This document shows positions 2,061 through 63,825 of a stretch of DNA of 64,000 bases, in pieces (within the stretch, counting starts at the first letter, position 1; each line of letters starts with the position of its first letter). The notes under the pieces are model-generated. The model was not told where the DNA came from, searched no databases, and saw only the letters and a program-made list of their open reading frames with translations. A program made the translations under genes and the position numbers. Where the stretch lies: NCBI GenBank assembly GCA_025786725.1, contig JAHLTZ010000006.1, positions 682,001-746,000 on the forward strand, given 5' to 3'. Source of the stretch: Syncephalis fuscata. Its lineage: Eukaryota > Zoopagomycota > Zoopagomycetes > Zoopagales > Piptocephalidaceae.

Positions 2061-3133
2061 TTAAAAGTTGAATAGGCTGGAGCATTGGCTGGACTTGGTA
2101 TATAAGTGAACTAACTTCTGTTGCTTGAGAGTTTTGCTTTTTGCCAAATATATACCTAGCTGTATTAAACTAGCATTCGATCAAACTACCAATACTAATG
2201 TCCTGGAAGCGCCGGTTATTCTATTTCTAAAAAATATACAACACATGCCATATAATTAGTGTATAGGCTAGAATTATAAAATCCCACTTACAAACTATTA
2301 TTATGAGTTATTGTACACAGTGTACAAAGTGTAATCAGTGTATTGTTACTAAATATATAATTTTACTTACGACCTATTGATAAAATTGTTAAATCCACAC
2401 GGTTTATGGCATATGATTAGCGTATAAATGATTGATATATAATGTCAGTTACTGCCTAATAATACAAGTTATCAAATGTACACGGTTTATAGCGTATGTT
2501 TAGCGTGTGTGTATGATTAATTATACGTATTTTTACTTACTAACTATTAATATTGAATTGTTGATATACATTACACAACATTCAATTAGCGTACTATTAC
2601 TAAACATATAATGTTACTTACCAACTATTGATATTAATTTGTTAAGTACATGCGATGCACAAAATATGCTAGTGCATTGTTAGATAACATAAAATGCTAC
2701 TTACGTCCTATTGATACAAATTATTAGAAGCACAAAGTAAATGGTGCTGATTTAATACACAATTACTTGTTATACGATTCTATTTACCTTCTATTAGTGT
2801 CAAATTAGTAAGCACATAAATATATTATGCAATCAGCGTGTGTGTTTATTCAAATAAAATAGCACTTACGACCTATCAATAAAAGTTGTTAAAGCACGGT
2901 GCATGTAATATGAAATCAGCGTATTGTTAATTAATATACACTATTACTTACGACCTAATTCATACATCCCATTAAACAAACACAATATATGACATATGAT
3001 CAGTGTATAGCCAGTTAACTCATTTTAGTTGGAACATACCACGACGAACTAAAATTGGCTTAGCATCCACTGTGACCATATTGGCTACAAAAGCAATGGC
3101 TACAATGCAGGCAATGGCGATAGAAAGCTTCAT
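2061..3133 (-). pseudogene. Micro-exon gene A: signal-peptide exon plus nine 3-nt micro-exons (possibly decayed)
   Basis: Paralogue of the large micro-exon gene at 63825-58646. Exon 1 (3133-3040) starts MKLSIAIACIVAIAF, a signal peptide, and ends KPILVRR plus one base at donor GTATGT. Nine 3-nt segments follow, each bounded by a TAG acceptor and a GTAAGT-like donor: 2954-2952 GTC, 2872-2870 GTC, 2790-2788 AAG, 2707-2705 GAC, 2624-2622 TTG, 2543-2541 TTA, 2455-2453 GCA (donor GTAACT), 2373-2371 GTC, 2294-2292 TTT. Introns are about 65-85 nt and strongly diverged, but each keeps an RCTRAT-like branch motif. A terminal exon (about 2226-2156) encodes FQDISIGS, as in gene B, and a last segment ends QCSSLFNF at stop 2063-2061. 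Read in the exon-1 phase, the frame stops on entering the terminal exon, so this is either a pseudogene or a ~40-residue precursor (RRGRQGLVSSL end). Not a recognised family. Confidence 0.6.
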
Positions 3134-30049: not shown

Positions 30050-31554
30050 TTATTTACTTTTACACAAGCATGATGGAGTTTTCCCGAGTATGCCGGCACA
30101 AAGATTTTCAACTGCTGTAACTGCCATTGCATTGCGTGTCTCATGCGTTGCACTAGCAATGTGTGGTACAACAATGCAGTTTTTTAGTAATAGTAATTCG
30201 TGATTTGCTGGCAATGGTTCGGGCACAGCTACATCCAAACCGGCACCGTATAACCGGTTTTCTTTCAGTGCTCGCACAAGTCCATCTTGATCAATAACAC
30301 CGCCACGTGCTGTATTTACCAATATTGATGACGATTTCATTGCGCAGAATTCATTGTAGCCAAGTATATTGCGTGTTGTATTATTAAGACTACAGCAAAC
30401 ACAGAGAATGTCCGATTCTTTTAACAATGTATCCAGCGACACAAATTCGCCATTGACCTCGTCTGCTTCTGGACGCGGCGAGTTACCGTGATACAGAATA
30501 CGACCTACGTTGAATGCACGCAATCGTTTTGCCGTAGCCAAACCAATGCGTCCCATGCCAAGAATGCCGACAGTCTTGCCTCCGATGTGCATTCCTGATC
30601 ATTTTTTCAGTTAATTTAATATTATATAAATTTAATTGCACTAACCTCGTATCCAACTCTGTAGCCATACTCCTTCCTTATAGTAATATTAATAACTGCA
30701 AACATCAACCCATTTAAAAAATACCTTTTCCATTCGTGCCGCATCAATGGCCTATTGCCAATGCATCAATAATAGGAATTGTGAACATATCATTTTCCTA
30801 CCTCATTGAGCCTTCGAGCAACTGCCAATACCAGGGTAACAGTAAGATCAGCACTGGCGTCAGTAAGCGCATCAGGTGTATTACATACGGTAATACCGTG
30901 AGTTTGAGCTGTTTCTACATCAATATGATCAAAGCCGGCCGACATGGTTGATACAATCTAAATAAGCGTTAATCCAGCTATTTTCTAGCGTATTGTACTA
31001 ATCAGCATACTTTTAAGCTGGTTCCTTATTATTTAAAAAGTATGTTTGGTATTAGTGATAATGTTTAGATCAAACAATATGATGGAGCTGCGTACCTGCA
31101 TATGTAAGTACTTCTTTATTGATCGGCAAATCTACTTTGCATAGTATACCGTTTACGCCTGTAAGTAACAAGGCCATTAAATTAGATCTACGTATATGAT
31201 GCGCTAATAAAAGCACGCTACCTTTTTTTAACAGTTCATAAAATGTTTGCTGTGAAATAATTTGTTCATGCTCCCATTGCTCAATGATCCATCCGTATTT
31301 CCTATTTATTTGTTAATAATGGTAATAATTCATTTATATTCTTACCTTGCCCTCTCATTCAGCAGTTTCTGTCCTTCATGTGGAAGCGGAAATGTAACTA
31401 CTATCCGCTGTGTATTTTGAATTGGCGATCGTTTAATTCTTGATGATTTACAATTTGTAAGTGATCTGCTAAAAGGTACGAGTATATCGCGTGCCAGAAG
31501 AATGTTTGATTGACCGAAAGTACCGGTGATTTGCTTGGTGCTTATTTCTTCCAT
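30050..31554 (-). CDS. D-2-hydroxyacid dehydrogenase, glyoxylate/hydroxypyruvate reductase type, copy 1
   Basis: NAD(P)-dependent reductase of the GRHPR branch. The last exon (from about 30592 to 30050) carries the Rossmann motif [16 protein letters not shown], the catalytic Arg in [12 protein letters not shown], Glu in [12 protein letters not shown] and His in [13 protein letters not shown]. Upstream exons read from the minus strand: the start at 31554 (MEEISTKQITG) ending ERAR at donor 31345, then KYGWIIEQWEHE, a segment with GVNGILCKV, one with STMSAGFDHIDV (substrate-side loop), and short connectors. First of four tandem copies. The N-terminus is longer than in copy 4 (36875), so the start is less certain than the function. 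Confidence 0.82.
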
Positions 31555-32152
31555 TTTAAAGAGTTATAATAGTAATATTGTGTATTAAATTGCTGATCTG
31601 AACGGTAAGAAAATTATGCTAAAGCGTAGACGTAGACAAAACTCCACATACCTAACTGCTTTTAAATTAATCTCATCAATAAATAGCCTCTTTGCATTAA
31701 GCATATGCGCGAGATATCCAATGCCTCAGGGGCAATACCAAGTCTATGTAAACTAAGGCTTCGCTAGGGGGTAGCGTTAAGGAGATTGATTGTCTGATAT
31801 TGTGGCGTACCAAATCACAGTCATTAAAATTTGACTATACGGGTGTGTAGTTTAATGCATTCTATTGTTATGCAGTAGTGACCATTAATCGAATATAAAA
31901 GCATTTACATTACATTGCATGTATTTATTTAGCAATGCTTTAAAAATGGCCAATTGTTTTATTGAACATTACATAATGTTTGCAATGGTTTTTATGCAAA
32001 TTTGTCTACTAACATATGCAAAAATGCTAACAATATTTATTTAAATAATAGTATAGATAGTTAGAATAATAGCTAAATAATAAAATCATATACTCAATGA
32101 AATTATTAAACTTTTAAATGGTTTATAATAAAACATATGTACATGGCATTGA
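31555..32152. other. Spacer between reductase copies 1 and 2
   Basis: AT-rich spacer; no exon or repeat recognised. Confidence 0.4.
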
Positions 32153-33670
32153 TTACAATGAATAAGGTAATGGTTTTGCCATTAATCCAGCGCAAAGATT
32201 TTCAACAGCAGTAACCGCCATTGTGTTGCGTGTCTCGTGCGTTGCACTAGCAATGTGCGGTACAACAATGCAATTTTTTAACGACAATAACTCATGATTT
32301 GCCGGCAATGGCTCAGGTATTGCTACATCTAGACCGGCACCGCATATCTGGTCTTCTTTCAGTGCTCGTACAAGTCCATCTTGATCAATAACACCGCCAC
32401 GTGCTGTATTTACCAATATTGATGACGATTTCATTGCGCAGAATTCATTGTAGCCAAGTATATTGCGTGTTGTATTATTAAGACTACAGCAAACACAGAG
32501 AATGTCCGATTCTTTTAACAATGTATCCAGCGACACAAATTCGCCATTGACCTCGTCTGCTTCTGGACGCGGCGAATTACCGTGATACAAAATACGACCT
32601 ACGTTGAATGCACGCAAGCGTTTTGCCGTAGCCAAACCAATGCGTCCCATGCCAAGAATGCCGACGGTTTTGCCTCCGATGTGTGTTCCTATTTAATGAA
32701 TATTAGTTATGTTACAGCATCACTAAATTTTCATACCCAAAATCCAGCTTTGCTCCCAAGTTCCTGGCTAAGTTATTTAAAAAAATGTTAAAAGCGGTGT
32801 AAAATAATTACAGTTGTATACTTACTCTGCCTTCACGCACAGCATCAATGGCCTGAATGATAATGACAGTTAATGTATATTTTAGTTACTTTTTATTATT
32901 ACCTCGTTTAGTCTGCGTGCAGTAGCCAATACTAGCGTCACTGTCATATCTGCGCTGGCATCTGTAAGAGCGTCGGGAGTGTATCCTACTTGGATGTTAC
33001 GCTTTTTGGCAGCTTTTAGATCAATATGATCATAACCGACCGACATGGTCGAAACCACCTATTGATTAGCCAATTTAGCTAGCCTACACTTTATTGAACG
33101 TGCTTCGAATCTATTATACCTTCAGTTCGTTTCCTGCATTGACGTCAATAGGAAGAAACCAAGCTATATAAAAAACACTTACCTGCCTCGTAAAACATAT
33201 CGTTTCCAATAGGTACGCCTAGTTTACAAATAATTCCATTTGGTTTACTTGCAGACAGGGCAAGTAAAAGATTGCAGGGAATCGTTGTATCTTTTCTCCA
33301 TTGTATCAGAGACCAGCCATGCTGCCTATCACTACTGTTAGCATAACTAGATTATCGAGTATTTTGGCACTTGCTTCACTCTGTCCTCCAAAACACGCTG
33401 GCCATCAGGTGGAAGGTAGTAAGTGGCTAGAATGCGCGGGCTACTGGGTTTACTTCCGGGCGTAACATGAACATATTTGGACAAATCCTCAGCTTGAAGT
33501 AGCAGATCTGGTGGTGTTGCAATATGCGCAATAGATAGCTCTTTGGTCGTTATGTCATGCTGTAAAATGATATCGAGAACGCTTGGTGTTTGTGTTGTGT
33601 GCTTCATATTGGTGAAATATATTACCACTGAACGATGTGTTTGCAAAAAAACAGCTAAACGCTTTCGCAA
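32153..33670 (-). CDS. D-2-hydroxyacid dehydrogenase, GRHPR type, copy 2
   Basis: Same architecture as copy 1. The catalytic exon ends at 32153 after [17 protein letters not shown]. It has [37 protein letters not shown] and [13 protein letters not shown]. Upstream exons include HGWSLIQW with [26 protein letters not shown], and a 5' exon with [14 protein letters not shown]. The first exon is open to 33670, but an internal Met ([10 protein letters not shown]) is an equally likely start. Its donor (GTGAAG, after DR) is weak, so that junction is uncertain. About 340 bases of the catalytic exon are nearly identical to copy 1 while the flanks differ. Confidence 0.75.
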
Positions 33671-33960
33671 ATTTATACTAAAGCTTTTGCAATAACTTAT
33701 TTTAAATATGAAGGCTTAGTAACCATTGCCAAGTTATACAAAATATAGATAACGCTGATACTCATGTTATTTAAATTTATTGGCTCGGCAATTTACACGA
33801 AATTAAATAAATTTAGTATTTGCCAGCAATAAGTTGGGCTGAAGTAAAAGCCGGTCTATTTAGTTTCGCTTGGTTTATAAAATAATTACAACGTTTTTAA
33901 ATTGTATCAATTTTGCCTTGATATAGGCTTATTGGCGGTTTATTATAGCCGACATATTAA

Positions 33961-35184
33961 TGAGCTCCAGAAACACCAGCACAGAGATTCTCCACAGTTA
34001 GTATAGCCATTTCATTATAAGTTTCAACAGTGGCACTACCAATATGTGAAAGTACTGTGCAATTTTAAGACTTAGTAGGGGATAATTGGGCGGCAATGGC
34101 TCGGGAGTGGTGATGTCCAAGCCAGCCGCAGCAATACTCAACTCCTTAAGTACGCGCAATAGTCCATCCTGTTCAATGATGCCACCACGGGCTGTATTCA
34201 CAATGATAGATGTTGATTTTATTTAGCAGAAATTATTTTAGCAGCTGCTTATACAAAACAATTTCACTATTCATTTCAGTTACTTCAGGCCATGGTGCGC
34301 AATTATAATAAATAATACGGTTTATTCCAAATGTTCCCATTTCTTTGCTGTTGCCAAACTAATACGGCCATACTAAATACACTTAAAGTTTTGCCGCCAA
34401 GATCTATTCCTATGGCGATAGTTAGAACAGATGCTATTCACACTAGATGACGTACCAAGAAGCCATGTTGCATTTCCTAAGACCCACGACAATCGGCTTA
34501 CAAATTAACTATTATTAATAAATTGGATTACAAATGACTTACTGTTCCATTTTTCACGGCATCGATTGCCTATCATTTACAAATAATTGTCACCATCTTG
34601 GTATTAGCTGTATTAGTGTAATCACCTTATCCAAGCGATGAGACACGGCTAATGCCAATGTCACGAGCAGATTGGCCGTAGCATCAGTCAGTACATCTGG
34701 TGTATGGCCAACTTAAATACCGCATTGTTTCACATACTCAAAATTAATGTTCATAGCCCACGGCTATTGTAGATATCACCTAAAATAGCATGTGAAGTAG
34801 CAGCATCTTACAGTTAATTGATATTCTGACCTTTAATCGCTCACTTATATCTACTCTATTAGCTATTATAGCAGTTTATATTCTACTGCCTACCAGCAAG
34901 TTTAATTAACTTTTTATCAATAGTATTTGCTCCTCTGTATACTATTTCATCAACTCATTAAAACTATATTAAAATCAGCACAAAGATACACATATATTAT
35001 TTGCCTGGTGTCACTACGTTGAATAATTTTTTACAAGTCATTGGTGTTGCATTTTGAATTGGTTCCCAGCCATGTTCACTATTCAATGATTAAATGGTTT
35101 TTTAGCGTAAATGTCACTTGCATATTTTTCACGCATTTTCTGCCCAGCCTATGCTAAAATAGAATTTGCTACGATACGTATCAT
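33961..35184 (-). pseudogene. Decayed GRHPR-type reductase, copy 3
   Basis: Aligned by order with copy 4 (36875-35551), including the start (MIRIVA, near 35184), NTARGGIIEQDG and the TTPEPLPPNYPLL segment. The Rossmann glycine motif is replaced by unrelated residues (GKTLSVFSM), part of the catalytic exon is deleted, and frameshifts occur around 34060 and 34230. Clearly non-functional. Confidence 0.85.
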
Positions 35185-35550
35185 TGTTGCTAGTTTGCAG
35201 ATATATGAAAGTAAAAGCAAAGAGATATAAGTTTTACAATAGTTAAACCAATGCAAATATTTTATTTAAAGTAACGCTGTAATTCAATAGTGGCTGCTAC
35301 ACGAATTACAGTTTTGAAGCAGGTAAAGCAACAAAGCAACGCTTATAAATAAATACAACTTTTTTAAAAATATGCTAAAACTTATTATTTTCTATCTAAA
35401 TGCAAAATAGCGTTTGGAATATGGCAAAGTTTAGAATATGAAGCTGAATGTAAGAAAAGTTAATAATTACTAAATATAATAATAACTATATTAACAAAAT
35501 ATGTTGTGATAAGATCTAGCTAAATGCTAATAAAAATCATTAACAGTTTA

Positions 35551-36875
35551 TTATAGTCCACGTATTACTGGGGATCCAGAAACACCGGCACAGAGATTCT
35601 CCACAGTTAGTATAGCCATTTCATTGCGAGTTTCAACAGTGGCACTACCAATATGTGGCAATACTATGCAATTTTTGAGACTTAGTAGGGGATGACTGGG
35701 CGACAATGGCTCGGGAGTGGTGACGTCCAAGCCTGCTGCACCAATCTTCTTTTCTTCAAGTGCACGCACCAATCCATCCTGCTCAATAATGCCACCACGA
35801 GCTGTATTCACAACGATAGATGTTGATTTCATCTGACAGAATTGTTCGTAGCCTAGCATGTGCTTGGTACTTTCAGTGAGACTGCAGCAAATACACAGAA
35901 TATCCGATTGTTTTAGTAGCTGCTCAAACGAAACAAGTTCGCCATCCACCTCCGCTGCATAGGAACTTGATGAGCGATTATAGTAAATAACACGATTCAT
36001 GCCAAATGCCTTCAGCCTTTTTGCTGTTGCCAAACCAATACGCCCCATACCAAGTATGCCTAGTGTTTTGCCACGAAGTTCCATTCCTATGGCAATAGTT
36101 AGGATAGATGCTATTTATAATAGGTAGCATACCAAGAAGCCATGTTGGATCCCATGTCGTCCACTGCAGTCAGCTTGTAGATTAATTGCTATTAATAAGT
36201 TGGATTACAAATGACTTACTGTTCCATTTCTCACGGCATCAATTGCCTATCATTTACAATTGTTATTATTTGATAATAGCTATACTAACACACTTACCTC
36301 GCCCAAGCGGCGACATATAGCCAGTGTCAATGCCACGGTCAGATCGGCCGTAGCATCAGTCAGCACATCTGGTGTATGGCCAACTTGAACACCGCACTGT
36401 TTTGCATACTCAAGATCAATGTGATCATAGCCCACACTAAGTGTAGCTATAACCTAAAGTACGATGTAAAACAAAAAGCATTCCACAATCGACCAATACA
36501 CTAACCTTTAGTTGTTGACCTATATTCGTCTTATTAATTATAATAGCAACTTTATATCCTACTACTCACCAGCAAGGTCTATAATCTTTTTATCAATAGT
36601 ATTTGATGATTTGCACACTATTCCATCGACTCCTTAAGTTCATACTGAGATCAATACATACAAATAGAAAAAGATATACATATTATTTACCTAAAGCCAC
36701 TGCTTCAGCTATTCGTTCATAAGTCATTGCAGTGCTGTCTTGAATTACTTCCCAGTTGCGTTCACTATTCAATAGTTAAACAGTTTTCTTAGTAAAATGT
36801 CACTTACCTTGCATATTTTTCAAACAACTCCTGTCCAGCTGGGGGCAGTATATAAGTTGCTACGACGCGAACCAT
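35551..36875 (-). CDS. D-2-hydroxyacid dehydrogenase, GRHPR type, copy 4
   Basis: Starts MVRVVATYILPPAGQ at 36875, without the N-terminal extension seen in copies 1 and 2, which suits the family. Several short exons follow, then the catalytic exon 36084-35551. That exon has [58 protein letters not shown] and a C-terminus VIRGL. All catalytic residues (Arg, Glu, His) are visible. Closest in layout to pseudogene copy 3 next to it. Confidence 0.85.
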
Positions 36876-49675: not shown

Positions 49676-52600
49676 TTAAATGAAACAGTCAAGTTCATGT
49701 CTTACATAATAGTTACGTTCATCATCATCTAGACGTGGATAATAAGCAACCAATGCATCTTGTGATCCAATGTACATGTTATTGTAAACCTTCCAATAAA
49801 TCTCTCGTACACGACGTGCTGGATGGAATAGACCCTATAGTTATTATAAGAATAAGAATAAAGCGATTATAGCAGTCAATAAGCAATTAAACTAGTTCAT
49901 ATAGATCCACTTACTTGAAGTACATATTGCATAATAGTACATGGTCCCACTGACATACGAATACCTTCAACTGCTTCCAATACAGCATTAATAACATGAG
50001 GAGATGTTTCAAATATATTAGGCCAGACATGGTTCAATAAATGAACAAGTGCATCCTCACAGCCTAAACCATAAACACCAAGGGCCAAATCTATAGAAAT
50101 ATATAGAGATATATAGTATTAGTGTTAATATATAGTATATATTATATAGTAATGAATATTACTATTCAGTACTTACGTTTAACAGTAGCACAGGCTGTTT
50201 GACGATGAACAAGATCTCGATCAATAAGTGCATCTTCAAGTAAAGGTGTAACAGCATAGACATAATCTTTACCCATTTCTCCAATATATTCAAACATAAA
50301 TGACAATGACTAATAAAATAGTTAATAGTTAATTAATTAATTAATAAATGAATAGTATTTACCTTTAATACACCATTTTGAACATTTAATTCAGGTACTC
50401 GGTATTCATTCATGAGTGCTGGTAATACGGTGAAGGGTGAACATGTTTCTGCCACAATAGCTACATATACAATATTAATACGGCTATTACTCATCTATTG
50501 CCCTGTTACTTACCAATAGCAATGGTAGTACAGATACGATTTTGACGCTCTTGTACTTTAAGATTGTTTAATAGAGTGGCCAGTACATCTTGTGGTCCAA
50601 TCGCTTTAGCAATATAACCAAATGTATTGACAGATGCACGTCGAATAGCCTTTTTATGTGCTCGTAATAGATCTAACAACTCGAAACAGACCCGCATCCA
50701 TTCACGAGCACTAACAAATTCAGCACCTCTATCGGCAATACGACCAATAATATCCTAAATAGATCATCATTAATACAGTACACGGTAGCTATTTAGCTAT
50801 TAGTGATCGTTCAACTTACCACAACGTTTTCTTGTACTCGTTCGTGTCTATTCTTAAGAATAGGCGTTAATCGCGGTAATAGATCCTTAATCGGTGGGGT
50901 CATATTCGTCATACCAATAACATTGACAATGCCTTTAAGACCGGCAATGATCGATGCCAATACTTCGGGATACTCTTCGCCCAAGTATTCATATAATACA
51001 ACACCTAAATGACTCATCAACTTCTCTTCACCACATGTCTTCATGACAATGGCAATGCGCGAGATAAGATCAGCCGCTTGTTGGCGTACTTTGGCCGATT
51101 TGTTATTAAGTCGCCAGAGAATGGTGGAACAGATCTGTGGTAGGTATGGCTTCACTCTTAGACCAAGCGCGTTCACGACAACACCAAATCCATTAAGCAT
51201 AACCACATCTTCAACGGTTTGTTCTTGGAAAGCGTATAGAATACCGTCAATAAGTACTTCCTCCAAACGTTGATCAATATCGGTGGCCCCTAGTTCAGAT
51301 ACAACTTTCTCTATGGTTTCCATGGCCATTTTACGGAATGGTTCGGATTCATCTTTTAGACCATCGACAATACGCGTAACAATATCGGCTACACCGACTT
51401 TCTGAGCCAATTCCACCGTGGTTTCAACCAATTGACGGTAATTACGTCGATCCAGGGCCATACGACGTACCCAAAAGTTCTTAAAGTACTCGGGTAGAAT
51501 CTCTTCACGTAGATAATCGGCACGTACACCATCGGTAGCCGCACATTGCTTCACCACTTTAAGAACAATCTTCTTCATTTCTTCATCTGGTGATTGAAAT
51601 TCTCGTACTAGAATCTTCATTAAATTCTGTGTATACATATTGGCATCTTCGGCATTCATCAGTGGTGTAATGAATCCAACTGCCTTTAGAAATGCGGCCA
51701 ATCCTTTGCCTCGATGTTTATGAATACCGCCCCATAATGGCTCGAGAACGGTACCAAACGATTCAATACCGTAGGGGGAGGCTGCTTCAGCTAATGCTGC
51801 TAGAGCTAAAGCAGTAATCGTGCGTACCTTTTGCTGTTCATCGGTAAGACCATGCCCAATACATTCGACTAGATTGGTTAGGTGAGGTAGAACGGAACAG
51901 CCCATAAGAATGGCAATCTGTTGAATGATCTTAATACCTGTATGACGTGCTTGCCATGACTTTTTACTCTTACAAACAGCGCGTAAGAACGGTAATAGAG
52001 CTGGAATACCTAATGCTGATGCGACGACTGAAAAGGCACGGGCTGTCGTATTACGTACATATTCATCGACATTATCGATATCTGGCCGCATAGTAGCAAT
52101 CATAGTAGCTAGACCGGCCGCTTTACTAAGATTACTGATAATCTCTCGTCCTTCAACACGAGCATAATAGTCTTCATCGATTAACATAGGCTCAATAACC
52201 ACCAGTATTTTATGGACAAATGGTCGAACAAGATCGTCAAGTTTGTACATAATACGATCGATGACCTTGACTAGTAAATGGCGTTCTTGATCCTCAAGTG
52301 ACGTCGACATTAAAAGTGGCAGAATTTGGTTAAATAAAGAACCAGCACCAAATTCACGTGCCTTATCCGTAATTTGTCGAAGTGATGTTTTACGCATGGC
52401 CGGCGTACCATTCTTAATTTTAAGTAATAGACGCATGATTTTACGCTCTTTTAATTCTTCAATCGATAAATCGGCATCTTCCCGATTATCAAGTAACTTG
52501 CCAAAGTACTGTTTATCTTCAGCTTTAAACACTGGTAATTCGCCAACACCGGGAATATCACTCATGGGTATATCTGGTCTAGGTGTCATGCCTTCTTCAA

Positions 52601-53822
52601 GCATAAGGAAGCCACCGGCATCGCCCATAGGTGTAGGTGTAGCGGTAAGTTTACGGGCTGGTGTGTGAATAGGTACATATGAGCTGGGTGGTTCTAAAAT
52701 CTTGTAACCAGTCGATGGCAGTATTGAATTCAATTCTTCATCACTCATAGGACGGTTACGATCATCCAATTCACGTTCCCATCGTAGTTGTTGGGCTAAT
52801 TCAGGCGCTACACCTGCCATAGAACCAGCAATAGGTGTGGCCATAACGTTAACACCTGATGGTGTGGCACCCAATCCACCTAATCCACCGGCATTTACCA
52901 TAGGTGTCTCATCCCATCGAGAACGTTTAGGTGTTGCGCCTACCATTTGCGGTGTAGCATCCCATCGAGAAGCGCGTGGTGTTGCTTCTACACCAAGACC
53001 AACTCGCGGTGTTTCGTCCCATCGCGACCGCTTTCGTCCTTCACCAGCATCGGCGCGTGGAGTCTCATCCCAACGACTACGGCTTTCTTTAGCTCGTCTA
53101 TTAGCGCTCATTTCCTCCTCGTCGTCCTCGTCCCATTCTGACTTCTTTTGTGCACCAACTGCCGGCATAGCTTCGGGTGCCGTGCCATTTTGTAGCGCTT
53201 CAGCTCTTTCTTGCTCTTTTGCTGCAATCTTACGACGTAATTCTTGTTCTTCCCGTTCTAGTTGAGTCTGTCGCATAACCTCGGCATACGAGCGTGATTC
53301 GCCGCCATCTGTCTCGGCTTCATTGCTTCCTTTGGCGAATGCATCCCGACGTTCCGGTGATAGTGCGCGTTGATAACGACGTCGATGATAGTCGGTCTCG
53401 CGATCACTAATCTTTGATCGGCCACTACCGGCCATAGGATCAAAGTTACTTTCCTCGGCATCTCGTTCAATCTCATCGCGGTATTCACGCGGTGCAGTAA
53501 TAGACGAGAAGCCACGTCGAGAAGAGGCGTACTTGTCGGTCATCATGACGTCAAGTTCATCGCTACGACCGCCTCCACCCACTGCGATCGAGCGATCGTA
53601 GCCTTCAAAGCGATCTCCCGAGCCATATAGATCTTGATCGTAAGAGATCTTGCCAACTAACGCGGCACGTTTGGATTCCTGCTGTTCACGCAGAATCTCT
53701 TCCCGTTGGGCTTGTTGTGCCTTGATCTGCGCCTCAATGTCAATTTGTGTGCCTTAATAGCAGTATCAGTTATACGTGTTCATAATTTACATGTTGATCT
53801 ATTGCAACTTACCGTTAGACAT
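49676..53822 (-). CDS. SF3B1: Splicing factor 3B subunit 1 (U2 snRNP HEAT-repeat protein)
   Basis: Core U2 snRNP protein that clamps the branch-site helix. A tiny first exon (MSNG, start 53822) joins an exon of nearly 3 kb (about 53756-50820), followed by short C-terminal exons ending [11 protein letters not shown] at stop 49678-49676. The N-terminus has the U2AF-ligand-type tryptophan motifs (repeated RWDETP/RWDATP). The C-terminal two thirds are HEAT repeats, for example [36 protein letters not shown] and [17 protein letters not shown]. Length and layout fit the family. Relevant to this window because correct branch-site recognition would be needed to splice the 42 predicted introns of gene B. 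Confidence 0.97.
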
Positions 53823-58645: not shown

Positions 58646-61600
58646 TTAAAGACTGGATAAACCGGAGCATTGGCCAAAACTTGATATATAATAGACTGGA
58701 CGGCGTAGTTGTCAAATGGTCTTGCTTTTCACCGAATATATACCTAAAGTGTATTGGAATAGTGACTTGATTGCACTACCAATGCTAATGTCTTGAAACC
58801 ATTGATTATGCTGCATTTACAAATAAAGATATTATATGCCATAAATTAATTTATAAATCATCAATATACAATAGCACTTACGTTCTATTAATATTAAATT
58901 ATTTATACACATGGTATATAGCATGTGATTAGTGAGTAATCAATTAATATACAATACGACTTACAGCCTATTAGTATTAAATAATTGGTACAATCAGCAA
59001 ATAGCATAGTTAATGTATAGTTAGTTAATATACAATATCACTTACAGCCTATTAATATTAAATAATTGGTACAATCAGCAAATGGCATGGTTAATGTATA
59101 ATCAGTTAATATACAATATCACTTACGATCTATTAATATTAAATAATTGGTACAATCAGCAAATAGCATAGTTAATGTATAGTCAGTTAATACATAATAT
59201 AACTTACAGCCTATTAGTATTAAATAATTGGTACAATCAGCAAATAGTATAGTTAATGTATAGTCCGTTAATATGCAATATAACTTACGTTCTATTAATA
59301 TTAAATAATTGGTACAATCAATAAATAGCATGGTTAATGTATAGTCAGTTAATATATAATATAACTTACGCCCTATTAATATTAAATAATTGGTACAATC
59401 AGCAAATAGCATAGTTAGTGTATAGTTAATTAATACAAAAATACAACTTACCCGCTATTAATATTAAATAATTGGTACAAGCAGTAAATGGCGCGATTAA
59501 TGTATAGTTAATTAACATACAATACAACTTACGCTCTATTGATATTAAATAGTTGGTACAATCAGCAAATAGTATAGTTAATGTATAGTCCGTTAATATG
59601 CAATACACCTTACGAGCTATTAATATTAAATAATTGGTACAATCAGCAAATAGCATAGTTAATGTATAGTCAGTTAATACACAATATCACTTACCATCTA
59701 TTAATATTAAACAGTTGGTACAATCAGCGAATAGCATGGTTAATGTATAGTCCGTTAATATGCAATACAACTTACGTTCTATTAATATTAAATAATTGGT
59801 ACAATCAGCAAATAGCGTAGTTAATGTATAGTCCGTTAATATGCAATACAACTTACCCCCTATTAATATTAAACAGTTGGTACAATCAGTGCATAGTATA
59901 GTCAATGTATAATCAGTTAATATGCAATACAACTTACGAGCTATTAATATTAAATAATTGGTACAATCAGCAAATAGCGTAGTTAATGTATAGTCCGTTA
60001 ATATGCAATACAACTTACCCCTATTAATATTAAACAGTTGGTACAATCAGTGCATAGTATAGTCAATGTATAATCAGTTAATATACAATACAACTTACAT
60101 CCTATTAATATTAAATAATTGGTACAATCAGCAAATAGCGTAGTTAATGTATAGTCCGTTAATATGCAATACAACTTACTGCCTATTAATATTAAATAGT
60201 TGGTACAATCAGCAAATAGCGTAGTTAATGTATAGTCCGTTAATATGCAATACGACTTACACTCTATTAATATTAGATAATCAGTACAATCAGCAAATAG
60301 CATAGTTAATGTATAATCAGTTAATACACAATATAAAGGTGGACGTTGCTAGCCCAGTAGGATAAGGCAGCGTCTTTTGAGCTGTAAGGCTCCGGGTTTA
60401 AACTTTAGTTCAAATCAATCCTTAAGTAAACCCCCTCCCAGTTTTTTAGTTAACAAAATTGCAAACCAGAACCCAATAAGTAGGTCCGGAAACAAGACCT
60501 TGGCCAGAATAGTCAAGGAAAAATAATTGGGATTAACTTTAAAAAATAGTGCTACACAGCACTATTCAAAAGAAGATGGTCCCGCGTGGAATCTACATGA
60601 ACCAGATTTGCGCAAAAACGTGGCAGTCCATTTGTTAATTTAGAAAAAGCCCAAAATAGTGGGGAGCAGCGCAAACTAAAATTATGCGCAGCGGGCGCTC
60701 ATAATCCCTTCTAATAAATAAATAAATAATACACAATGCAACTTACGTTCTATTAATATTAAACAGTTGGTACAATCAATAAATAGCATGGTTAATGTAT
60801 AGCCAGTTAATACACAATACTACTTACCGTCTATTAATATTAAATAATCAGTACAATCAGCAAATAGCATAGTTAATGTATAGTCAGTTAATACATAATA
60901 TAACTTACAGACTATTAATATTAAATAATTGGTACAATCAATAAATAGCATGGTTAATGCATAGTCAGTTAATACACAATACCACTTACCGTCTATTAAT
61001 ATTAAATAAATGGTACAATTAATAAATAGCATAGTTAATGTATGTCAGTTAATACATAATATAGCTTACTGCCTATTAATATTAAATAATTGGTACAATC
61101 AGCAAATAGCATAGTTAATGTATAGTCAGTTAATACATAATATAACTTACAATCTATTAATATTAAATAATTGGTACAATCAGCAAATAGCATAGTTAAT
61201 GTATAGTCAGTTAATACACAATATCACTTACCGTCTATTAATATTAGATAATCAGTACAATCAGCAAATAGCATAGTTAATGTATAGTCAGTTAATACAC
61301 AATATCACTTACCGTCTATTAATATTAGATAATCAGTACAATCAGCAAATAGCATAGTTAATGTATAGTTAGTTAATATACAATACGACTTACCACCTAT
61401 TGATATTAAACAATTGGTAAAATTAGTGCATAATATAGTCAATGTATAGTTATTTAATATACAATATCACTTACAATCTATTAATATTAATAATTGGTAC
61501 AATCAGCAAATGGCATGGTTAATGTATAGTCAGTTACTATACAATATCACTTACGATCTATTAATATTAAACAGTTGGTACAATCAGTAAATGGCATAGT

Positions 61601-63825
61601 TGATGTATAGTTAGTTAATACATAATATAACTTACCGGCTATTAACATTAAACAATTGGTACAATCAGCAAATAGTATAGTTAATGTATAGTCAATTAAT
61701 ATACAATATCACTTACTCCCTATTAATATTAAATAATTGGTACAATCAATAAATAGCATGGTTAATGTATAGTCAGTTAATATACAATATCACTTACTCC
61801 CTATTAACATTAAAAAATTGGTACAATCAGCAAATAGCATGGTTGATATAAAGCCAGTTAATAAATAATACAACTTACAGCCTATTGATATTAAGTTATT
61901 GATACACACAATACACGATATATAATTAGTCAGTGGTCAGTTAATATATGATGCTACAGCATTTCCCGAGCTAAAGGCTCCAAGTCCAAACCTCAGTTTG
62001 AATCAATCCTTAAGTGGAAATCCCCCCAGTTTTTTTAGTTAACAAATTGCAAACCAAAACCAAAACCAAACAAGTAGATCCGGAAACAAGACCTTGGCCA
62101 GAATAGTCGAGGAAAACCAATTGGGGCCAACTTCAAAAAATAGTGATGTGTAGCATCATTCAAAAGAAGATGGCCCCGCGTGAAATTTATATAGGTGTAT
62201 TTTACGCAAAAACGTGGCAGTCCATTCGTTAATTTGGAAAACTCCAAATATAGTGGAGAGCAGCGCAAATTAGCAAAATTATGCGCAGTGGGGCTCACAA
62301 GCTCTTCGAAATAAAATATAATGCTACTTACATACTGTTATAATATTAATTTGATACAAACAGTACATGGATATAATCAGCAAGTAGTTAGTTCATATAC
62401 AATACAACTTACTAGCTAGTAATATTAAATTATTAATGCACACGCAATACATGGATGTAATTAGTGTATAGTCAGTTAATATGGAATATTACTTGCCATC
62501 TATTCCATTAAGTTATTGATACACATAGTGCACGATATATGATTAATTTATAAATTATCAACATATAATACAACTTACAGCCTATTAATATTAAGTTATT
62601 GATATACACAGCACATAATATATAATTAGCCAATGCTTAATTGATATACAATATAACTTACATTCTATTAATATTGAGTTTTTGATAAACATGATGCATA
62701 ACATGTGATTAGTGCATAATCAACTAATATACAACACAACCTACTTTCCGCTAATATTAAGTTGTTGATAAATACAGTACATAATATATAATTAGTATAT
62801 ATTTAGTTAATATATAATATCATCGCCAACCAAAAGAAATAAGGAATGGCGGAGATGACGAATGATTGAGGAAAAGAGATGCTGTTAGAAAACAAACGAT
62901 TAATATCAGTAGAAAAAGAAAAAGATGTACAGATTCCAAGTCAAAAAATAACAGAAAACAGAGACAAAAGTTATATGACGATGGAAGACGTGGGAATAAC
63001 AGTTACAAAAAGCAACCAAACAAAAGAGGATGGTGCAGGCAAGTATAGGCGCGTCTGCAATCAGCAGTCCAAGAATTAAAGTAATGGGCACAGCGCAGAG
63101 TAAATGGAATCAGACACAAAAATACAGCCAGAAACAATGATAGTATTAAGAAAAACAAAGAAAATAAAATGAGATAATGACAATCATGTAGGCAATAATA
63201 GCCAATAAGAACAAGTATAATGATTTCAGATAGCCAGCTCATACCGGACGCAGTAGAAAGAGGCGGAAATGCGAAGCAGAGACTGAAAAGTGAAAAAAAC
63301 GAGTATGACAGAAAGGAAAGCCATGACGAAATTGAAACAGCAATAGCCAGTAATTAGGTATCCTCAAGTGTTAAAGAAGTTCTGTAACAAAGGCCAAAGC
63401 CAGTAGAGCCATAGGCAAATAATACATCCAAGATTATATCAAATGGAGCTTTGGCAGAGCGTCAGTTAATATAACGGCCTTAGTGTGAAATTAATAGAAC
63501 TCAGCTTCACGCAAAAACGTGGCGGTCTACTTAGTTTTAAAAACGCTGTACATTTAGCAGAAACGGAGAAGCAATGCAAATTCTCAATTATATGTAATAG
63601 GGATTCACAAGCTTTTCAAAATAAAAATAAAATAAATACAATACCACTTACTATCTATTATAATTATTGTTTAGAAATACTATTAGTAAATAAAATGCTA
63701 TGCCATATTTATTGATATTGCAACATACCACCACGACGAACTAAGGCTGGTTTAGCATCAACCATGGATGTACTAGCTACAAGCGCAACGGCAATGGTGC
63801 AAACGACGGCAATGGAAAGCTTCAT
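58646..63825 (-). CDS. Micro-exon gene B: secreted six-cysteine protein with 40 micro-exons
   Basis: Not a recognised family. Exon 1 (63825-63729, 97 nt) encodes a signal peptide (MKLSIAVVCTIAVALVAS...VDA), then KPALVRRG and one extra base before donor GTATGT. Forty micro-exons follow (listed separately), then exon 58810-58744 (contains FQDISIGSAIKSLF) and exon 58695-58646 (ends FGQCSGLSSL). Conceptual splicing gives 336 nt, 111 residues plus stop, with no internal stop. A dibasic RR at residues 30-31 looks like a Kex2 site. Cys sit at 37, 41, 47, 51, 57 and 105. About 6.5% of the 5.2-kb locus is coding. Each intron has a GTAAGT-type donor, a CTGAT branch-like motif and a TTAATAG-type acceptor. 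Paralogue A shares exon 1, the FQDISIGS exon and the QCS C-terminus. Role unknown; an effector-like or signalling peptide is plausible. Splicing is not proven. Confidence 0.8.
60333..60726 (+). mobile_element. tRNA-derived SINE inserted in an array intron
   Basis: The head contains an A-box (TAGCCCAGTAGG, near 60350) and a B-box-like segment (AGTTCAAATC, near 60407), as in tRNA-derived SINEs. It ends in a TAAATAAATAAAT tail. An 11-base direct repeat, TAATACACAAT, flanks it (60322-60332 and 60727-60737) as a target-site duplication. It lies antisense in the intron between micro-exons 22 and 23, leaving splice sites intact. Confidence 0.85.
61958..62320 (+). mobile_element. 5'-truncated copy of the same SINE family
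   Basis: Matches the element at 60333-60726 from just before the B-box (CAGTTTGAATC) to the 3' end. It shares GGAAACAAGACCTTGGCC and GCAAAAACGTGGCAGTCC but lacks the A-box. The direct repeat ATGCTAC occurs at both ends (61951-61957 and 62321-62327). It sits in the intron between micro-exons 7 and 8. Confidence 0.8.
62820..63640 (+). mobile_element. Composite insertion in intron 2 of gene B (unknown sequence plus SINE-like 3' end)
   Basis: Enlarges intron 2 to 901 bases. The right part (about 63500-63640) has GCAAAAACGTGGCGGTC and a TTCACAAGCTTTTCAAAATAAAA-type end, related to the 3' ends of the two SINEs. The left part (62820-63430) is purine-rich with short Lys/Arg-rich open stretches. I cannot assign it; it could be a fragment of the partner LINE or another element. 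Confidence 0.5.

Follow-up and report, generated by a model that had tools for sequence, protein, structure and literature searches.

Array gene on the minus strand

We analysed a stretch of 64,000 nucleotides (nt) from contig JAHLTZ010000006.1 of the fungus Syncephalis fuscata (assembly GCA_025786725.1, positions 682,001 to 746,000), hereafter called the window. On its minus strand, at 63825–58810, lies the gene L014, in which a long array of minute exons stands between a signal-peptide exon and a terminal exon (L-numbers denote family loci in the S. fuscata genome and P-numbers denote NCBI proteins). We read the gene with a splice decoder whose scores rest on the donor and acceptor sites; it admits only GT or GC donors and AG acceptors and is blind to exon length. 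It returned 41 introns, which divide the gene into exon 1, 40 internal exons and a terminal exon. An array at this place and on this strand had been predicted earlier from the letters alone, and both the decoder and the genome-wide motif counts given below bear it out. The accompanying claim of exactly 3 bases per exon held for 38 of the 40 internal exons; one of the other two is 6 nt long and one is 2 nt long. The features of L014 are as follows.

63729..63825, minus strand: 97-nt exon 1, coding for the signal peptide and the short pro-region (MKLSIAVVCTIAVALVASTSMVDAKPALVRRG); ends in phase 1 and is followed by the donor GTATGT
63652..63654, minus strand: micro-exon 2, ATA (3 nt)
62751..63651, minus strand: intron 2 (901 nt), enlarged by an insert; contains the open reading frame (ORF) read by the NCBI model P0123
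62745..62750, minus strand: micro-exon 3, CGGAAA (6 nt), donor GTAGGT
62332..62664, minus strand: array segment 1, introns of 78-81 nt; AAT 62662-62664, GCT 62579-62581, ATG 62497-62499 (donor GCAAGT), CTA 62413-62415, TAT 62332-62334
61882..62331, minus strand: 450-nt intron, lengthened by an inserted repeat
60747..61881, minus strand: array segment 2, 15 three-nt exons, introns of 77-78 nt; GCT GGA GGA CCG ATC ATT GTG ACG ACG ATT GCA ACG TCT ACG AAC
60264..60746, minus strand: 483-nt intron, lengthened by an inserted repeat with a transfer RNA (tRNA)-like end, resembling a short interspersed element by eye
58882..60263, minus strand: array segment 3, 18 exons, introns of 78-80 nt; AGT GCA GAT (GG) CTC GGG AAC ATG CTC AGC CGG GGC AAC GCT ATC GCT GCT AAC
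60019..60020, minus strand: the sole 2-nt exon of the array (GG)
58646..58810, minus strand: terminal exon, starting at 58810 and beginning CA-TAA in phase 1; 58646 marks the limit of the studied feature

Each array unit of about 81 base pairs (bp) consists of an acceptor, three variable bases and a donor. Comparing the 38 three-nt units, we found a mean entropy of 1.85 bits in the exon columns and of 0.52 bits in the 50 flanking intron columns. Most introns measure 77-81 nt, and three (901, 450 and 483 nt) are long because other sequence was inserted inside them. Dispersed-repeat inserts were noticed at about 60340-60730, 61950-62330 and 62800-63640, the first with a tRNA-derived-looking end when judged by eye. 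The 6-nt exon has counterparts close to the start of several other arrays of the family.

The phase-1 product of L014 up to the 2-nt exon reads ...VRRGDTEKCYAICWRTDHCDDDCNVYEQCR. The decoded path comprises 105 codons and, in the frame imposed by the 2-nt exon, continues into the terminal exon; an open frame of 111 codons, as proposed earlier, was not reproduced. The 2-nt exon reflects either a real frame shift or a G run that was misassembled. The CA-TAA at the start of the terminal exon is the same TAA context that ends the intron-free paralogues described below, and a conserved 3' region follows it. The NCBI model of L014, P0123, joins exon 1 to the ORF inside intron 2 (APFDIILDVLFAYG...) and includes zero micro-exons. 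Several NCBI models among P0122-P0124 and P0130-P0132 appear to be cut short or to extend into introns or repeats, which was verified for P0123 only.

A large family with 3-nt exons

Searching the whole 29-Mb genome, we found exact matches to TATTAATAG-NNN-GTAAGT at 1,519 places, while the reversed-pattern control gave 0. The same flanks at spacings of 0-2 nt matched exactly at 8 places (reversed control 0) and at spacings of 4-12 nt at 10 places (reversed control 3), so that all spacings other than 3 between 0 and 12 nt together gave 18 exact matches against 1,519 at 3 nt. Allowing up to one mismatch raised the 3-nt count to 3,116 places (reversed control 8). A search for the signal-peptide start of the family that allowed at most two mismatches gave 267 genome places (control 0), among which near-identical copies on small contigs may be alleles. 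At 20 loci drawn from these starts (the first 100 of the 267 in contig order), 15 carried arrays.

Twenty-three of 29 exon-1 genes were decoded (L016, L019, L022, L023, L028 and L034 were left out). Their 710 internal exons come from 22 array genes and one spurious model, that of the intron-free L017, whose two introns are spurious. Exons of 3 nt account for 659 of the 710; 13 are 6 nt, 27 are 15 nt, and 11 have other lengths. The 22 decoded arrays contain 11 to 72 introns each. The coding regions therefore have a micro-exon architecture, as they consist mainly of many short internal exons with a length divisible by three. In 14 of the 22 decoded arrays the frame runs unbroken through at least 10 micro-exons to the terminal exon. 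The protein matches of the family at E ≤ 0.1 number 12, all of them from Syncephalis fuscata.

Sequence evidence for phase 1

Of 24 array genes, 23 have an exon 1 that ends after the first base of a codon (phase 1); in the remaining one, L019, the donor is lost. Because of this ending, the 3-nt exons are codon-length and yet are not codons. Each phase-1 codon takes one base from one micro-exon and two from the next, and every codon is split by an intron.

We counted stops and cysteines in 17 of the 22 arrays (497 micro-exons), leaving out the near-duplicates L004, L006 and L018 as well as L001 and L031, whose frame-intact runs are shorter than 5 exons; such runs end at the first exon whose length is not a multiple of three. 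Phase 1 contained a single stop in 595 codons, which is the terminator of L021. When exon order was shuffled within genes, phase-1 stops averaged 19.25 (standard deviation (s.d.) 3.3), and 0 of 5,000 shuffles reached the observed value. The other phases held 4 stops in 612 codons (phase 0) and 31 in 595 (phase 2). Cysteines in phase 1 numbered 48, compared with 21.3 (s.d. 3.4) after shuffling, again with 0 of 5,000 shuffles reaching the observed number.

For the CxxxC, codon-usage and peptide-match tests, the repeat-type arrays L027, L029, L030 and L031 were also left out, giving 14 arrays. These contained 16 CxxxC motifs compared with 1.3 (s.d. 1.1) in shuffled genes (0 of 3,000 shuffles), and the pattern C-x3-C...C-x3-C appeared in 5 of the 14 with 0.01 expected by shuffling (0 of 3,000). 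The stop and cysteine signals reside in the exon junctions, because phase-1 codons need neighbouring exons joined in order. Phase 1 also fitted the codon usage of the host better than order-shuffled exons did (0 of 2,000 reached it). The original prediction of single-codon micro-exons was wrong in assigning one codon to each exon, as judged from the phase-1 end of exon 1, the paralogues, the cysteine spacing and the absence of stops.

As an exon, the triplet TAA gave 0 exact matches genome-wide and 0 among 565 decoded, and TGA is rare; both would be harmless in phase 1. Possibly TAA, TAG and TGA are scarce because, directly after a TAG acceptor, they create an overlapping, competing donor (GTAAGT, GTAGGT or GTGAGT). 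The scarcity of stop triplets looked at first like proof of phase 0, and we judged it to be no evidence for that phase.

Intron-free paralogues encode matching peptides

The genome also contains paralogues with the same signal peptide but no introns, and most of them have the 3' region in common with the arrays. L028 is one continuous ORF, MKLSIAVVCTVVVALIATTTTMVDANPDPSLIKPADCKACIKDCTRWWRLDYDKCRYKSCRDYCG, and P0125 matches two genome places over all its 69 residues without interruption. All 12 of the 14 genomic intron-free paralogues whose end is visible stop at TAA, most in the same sequence context. The comparison set of 17 intron-free peptides consisted of these 14 (in L038 and L044 the frame reaches the end of the stretch and the stop lies outside), P0125, which was shown to be continuous, and the NCBI proteins P0121 and P0126.

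Aligning the spliced product of L032 (RDPAKCEECRKRC...FCVGLCSKYC) with the continuous P0125 (KDPAKLCDKCIDKC...YCLGYCRKEC), we obtained a score of 78, which 0 of 200 shuffles reached. The exons of L014 before its 2-nt exon scored 42 against L028 (0 of 200 shuffles). When the 14 array peptides were compared with the 17 intron-free ones, the summed best scores were 551 in phase 1, 297 in phase 0 and 291 in phase 2, with 357 for shuffled phase 1. Eight of the 14 arrays fell below 5% of shuffles: L005, L014, L032 and L035 beat all 200 of their own shuffles, and L012, L024, L025 and L026 beat all but 1 to 5.

The array gene L012 and the intron-free L022 make the closest pair. They are 97.9% identical over the 427 bp before the start codon, their exon 1 is nearly identical save for a 21-nt insertion, and their 3' regions are nearly identical as well. 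L022 has TGGAAGCCATGTTGGC where L012 has the five exons TGG-AGC-CAT-GTT-GGC, a score reached by 19 of 5,000 shuffles. The simplest account of this pair would be that all 15 introns were lost recently and at once by recombination with a reverse-copied spliced RNA. A further likeness between an array and an intron-free gene was noticed in the branch that is not cysteine-rich: L017 reads AVEPLAK and the array of L027 reads VVGPLAK across the exons TTG, TTG and GACCATTGGCTAAGA.

Array introns resemble ordinary introns of the genome

In the decoded genes most array introns measure 70-85 nt. Among those of 60-95 nt, 559 of 657 begin with GTAAGT and at least 11 with GC. The SF3B1 gene in the window (50811-53582) served as a sample of ordinary introns; these are also short, and 4 of 5 begin with GTAAGT. 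Its protein is 98% identical to that of Syncephalis plumigaleata over residues 420-920, the part searched. With GT or GC at one end, AG at the other and a donor like that of the ordinary introns of the same genome, the array introns have the marks of the U2 type, within a decoder that admits only GT or GC and AG. Branch-like motifs are frequent, with CTGAT 27 nt and CTAAT or CTAAC 43-45 nt before the acceptor. The earlier view of L014 as a micro-exon gene with introns of spliceosomal type and a signal-peptide-like start is supported by this sequence evidence.

We also compared related arrays, pooling five of seven pairs (the near-identical L009/L018 and L003/L004 were left out). Donor and acceptor bases differed at 22 of 1,904 sites and intron bodies at 642 of 11,391, a comparison that is partly ascertained, because decoded units have these sites by construction. 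The micro-exons diverged faster than the intron bodies in L010/L026 (12 of 57 against 79 of 1,339), L029/L031 (55 of 156 against 269 of 3,247) and L020/L021 (23 of 30 against 116 of 723), where units of distant array pairs may be misregistered in the alignment. The 98% identical L005 and L006 have 42 and 43 introns, respectively.

Predicted secreted peptides

A hydrophobic, signal-peptide-like N-terminus, judged from the sequence, is common to the family. The RR ahead of the mature part suggests a likely Kex2-type cleavage site. After RR, the predicted mature peptides read DAIEDCRRGRAACFKKCQSTWRDSASLEYRSCSMDCASYWRIC (L005), SRDPAKCEECRKRCPKVYGTLFCVGLCSKYC (L032) and DIYGCLDQCYNKYFYNNNMDYYLCRTRC (L035). 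The stop comes as TAA two bases into the terminal exon in L006, L012 and L020, and a few codons later in L010, L026, L032 and L035. Not all products are rich in cysteine: L003, L009 and L021 have few or none, and L027 and L030, with 72 and 53 introns, encode tandem PTPISIW repeats from blocks of 3-nt exons and the 15-nt exon CTACGCCGATATCAA.

Searching Pfam, we found no family for six of seven family proteins, and the seventh gave only a sub-threshold match to Gloverin (E = 0.051). A profile search of PDB returned two non-significant matches only, including BWI-2c (E = 1.3). An AlphaFold model of the intron-free P0125, built on a three-sequence alignment, had a mean predicted local distance difference test (pLDDT) score of 63.5 and showed helices at residues 34-48, 52-62 and 64-67. 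Foldseek found no match to this model at E ≤ 0.001.

Other genes in the window

A second family gene lies on the minus strand at 3133-2220.

3040..3133, minus strand: exon 1, MKLSIAIACIVAIAFVANMVTVDAKPILVRRG, with a related signal peptide
2220..2954, minus strand: nine 3-nt exons (GTC GTC AAG GAC TTG TTA GCA GTC TTT, 2952-2954 ... 2292-2294) and the start of the terminal exon

Its phase-1 product ends RQGLVSSL-stop, and only RQGLVSSL follows RRG; the predicted mature peptide is only about nine residues long. Elsewhere in the window, at 30050-36084 on the minus strand, three tandem ORFs resemble paralogous D-2-hydroxyacid dehydrogenases by eye.

Interpretation and alternatives

We interpret the array as the mature-peptide coding region, built from 3-nt exons in phase 1, of a large family of putative secreted-peptide genes in Syncephalis fuscata, and put the probability of this reading at roughly 0.87. 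The architecture, the reading frame, the conservation of splice sites, the extent of the family and the intron-free paralogues with matching peptides were all obtained by computation. Exon 1 would encode the conserved signal peptide, followed by a short pro-region with RR at its end. The mature peptide would come from 3-nt exons set between introns that are homologous to one another, measure about 78 nt and have GTAAGT as donor and AATAG as acceptor; the stop would usually lie at or close to the point where the terminal exon begins. The spliceosome would take out the introns by intron definition, one after another, and introns of about 78 nt would suit recognition across the intron. Removal is likely sequential, because the acceptor and the next donor are only 3 nt apart and probably cannot both be occupied at the same time. 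Each ligation would place the next GTAAGT three bases past the junction, so that splicing would advance like a ratchet, much as in recursive splicing, but with 3 nt retained at every step. Syncephalis belongs to the Zoopagales, and its species parasitise other fungi, mostly Mucorales. The short, often cysteine-rich (CxxxC) peptides may be secreted products that act on host fungi or competitors, and the homologous introns may allow gain and loss of units, one residue each, with the frame kept.

Several observations pull the other way. Eight of the 710 internal exons are 2, 4 or 5 nt long and two are 20 nt, although the decoded exons of 20 and 31 nt are probably decoding faults. At least one exon is not a multiple of three in 8 of the 22 decoded arrays, L014 included, and L001 runs into stops beyond its 2-nt exon; in some cases these frame-broken copies may be pseudogenes or assembly errors. 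In L018, for example, one exon is 2 nt rather than 3 as in its 99.6% identical relative L009, which could be a mutation or an assembly error. No branch-point position is universal among the array introns, the low divergence of splice sites owes something to ascertainment, and faster divergence of micro-exons reached significance in three of five pairs but was absent from L005/L006 and L027/L030. Among the 14 arrays, six (L003, L009, L010, L020, L021 and L033) match the intron-free peptides no better than shuffles at the 5% level. Host codon usage favours phase 0 (mean log2 odds -0.08) over phase 1 (-0.26). The family peptides have no significant relative in Pfam or PDB, and a role against other fungi is a guess from the secretion signal, size, cysteines and fast change. 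P0123 ignores the array; we take it that the array was overlooked, which speaks neither for nor against splicing.

It is very unlikely that each 3-nt exon is one phase-0 codon in an ORF of about 105-111 codons running into the terminal exons. Few stops occur in that phase (0 of 306 triplets, with the window gene counted twice, and 4 of 612) and it fits host codon usage slightly better, but the scarcity of stop triplets may be explained by competing donors, and some micro-exons are TGA or TAG. We rejected phase 0 as the coding frame on the phase-1 end of exon 1, on its few cysteines (4 against 48 in phase 1) and on the lack of likeness between phase-0 peptides and the intron-free paralogues. 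A non-coding satellite or intronic tandem repeat, with a messenger RNA (mRNA) in which the terminal exon directly follows exon 1 and with triplets that mean nothing, would be in keeping with how common tandem arrays are and with the NCBI model that omits this one. The exact 3-nt spacing, the near-maximal variability of the triplets between conserved flanks, the order-dependent absence of stops and presence of CxxxC, and the match to intron-free peptides make that highly improbable. The least probable account is removal of the units of about 78 nt from the DNA, in the manner of the internal eliminated sequences of ciliates. Intron-free genomic copies do exist, as it would have it, but the units have GT or GC-AG ends and a full GTAAGT donor like the ordinary introns here, and we know of no DNA-level elimination of such units in fungi.

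The intron-free copies could instead be the working genes, and the arrays mostly decaying or intron-invaded relics that are poorly transcribed or mis-spliced. The 8 of 22 decoded arrays with at least one frame-breaking exon, the in-frame stop in exon 1 of L025 and the lost exon-1 donor of L019 would all fit. We nevertheless consider this unlikely, since arrays make up 15 of the 20 loci taken from the signal-peptide list, 14 of 22 arrays are frame-intact through at least 10 micro-exons, and splice sites have changed less than intron bodies. More easily entertained, though still doubtful, are combinatorial arrays, in which most micro-exons can be skipped in frame and one gene yields a peptide library; this would be compatible with phase-1 coding of the mature peptide. 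The units resemble one another in their donors and acceptors, and skipping any micro-exon keeps the frame because every 3-nt exon is symmetrical, but the cysteine spacing needs a fixed register that random skipping would destroy.

Returning to the phase-1 mature-peptide reading, we tentatively propose that these may be a distinct kind of gene, a possibility that we place somewhat below even odds. Homologous introns in tandem would split every codon of a hypervariable secreted peptide, and an intron with its 3-nt exon would form a single-residue cassette; unequal exchange between the near-identical introns, or exon skipping in the RNA, would add or remove residues singly and in frame; arrays would collapse to intron-free genes, apparently via mRNA; and the whole might serve as a peptide-diversity device in a fungal arms race. 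If spliced as predicted, the arrays set a new extreme for the spliceosome, with tens of consecutive 3-nt exons and more than 1,000 in one 29-Mb genome, and the use, order and fidelity of splice sites 3 nt apart become testable. The family may also lend itself to the study of how introns are gained and lost, because one genome contains both an array gene and an intron-free gene whose upstream DNA is 98% identical. Similar genes may hide in other genomes, because annotation misses micro-exons, as the NCBI model of L014 did.

Comparison with known systems

The original prediction likened the gene to schistosome micro-exon genes (MEGs) and aphid bicycle genes, which we find apt. Schistosome MEGs encode secreted parasite products through runs of tiny exons that are mostly multiples of three and are hard to annotate; 35 genes are described, with exons of 6-81 bp (3-81 in the abstract), mostly 15 bp, and introns of 0.1-5 kb (PMC10526429). 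Compared with that description, the Syncephalis genes are alike in their putatively secreted products and their runs of tiny exons in multiples of three, and unlike in that they belong to a fungus, with exons nearly all of 3 nt, homologous tandem introns of about 78 nt and 267 starts. In exon range (6-81 bp), intron range (0.1-5 kb) and lineage they fall outside the schistosome group as it is delimited there.

The exons of aphid bicycle genes are mostly longer than 3 nt. These genes are described as putative effectors that evolve fast and contain many micro-exons; they average about 17 exons, and nearly all internal exons begin at codon position 2 (PMC9168663). The Syncephalis exons likewise keep to one phase, the same phase 1, with frame-breaking exons in 8 of 22 arrays. 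Bicycle genes belong to insects, whereas the 12 protein matches of the present family are all from Syncephalis fuscata and give no sign of homology. The array of homologous introns is a Syncephalis feature that the available portions of PMC9168663 do not mention for bicycle genes.

In recursive splicing, a splice signal is formed anew at the last junction or close to it. Both it and the stwintrons involve consecutive splicing (PMC8469720, PMC5639578). Between steps those systems leave either nothing or a split splice signal, whereas the Syncephalis arrays would keep three coding bases per step; adjacent AG/GT with a zero-length exon is not what they show, as 8 units have 0-2 nt against 1,519 with 3. 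Isolated exons of 1 nt and 3 nt in Arabidopsis APC11, Drosophila homothorax and Fusarium CYP621A show that exons of this size can be joined (PMC4674806, PMC7392893, PMC12940212). They are single exons in otherwise ordinary genes, whereas the Syncephalis arrays would string tens in a row to build the whole mature peptide.

On the peptide side, the spacing of cysteines recalls the alpha-hairpinins, short peptides described in plants (PMC7191063). CxxxC-n-CxxxC occurs in 5 of 14 spliced products, whereas 10 of 12 typed intron-free relatives have C-x2-C-x3-C instead; helices are present in the P0125 model (mean pLDDT 63.5), and the match to BWI-2c (E = 1.3) is not significant. We found no described gene with tens of consecutive 3-nt exons in a literature search whose coverage mostly left out subscription journals and preprints. 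We file the Syncephalis family as an extreme new form of micro-exon gene, which, judged by how distant the organisms are, would have arisen independently of those of schistosomes and aphids.

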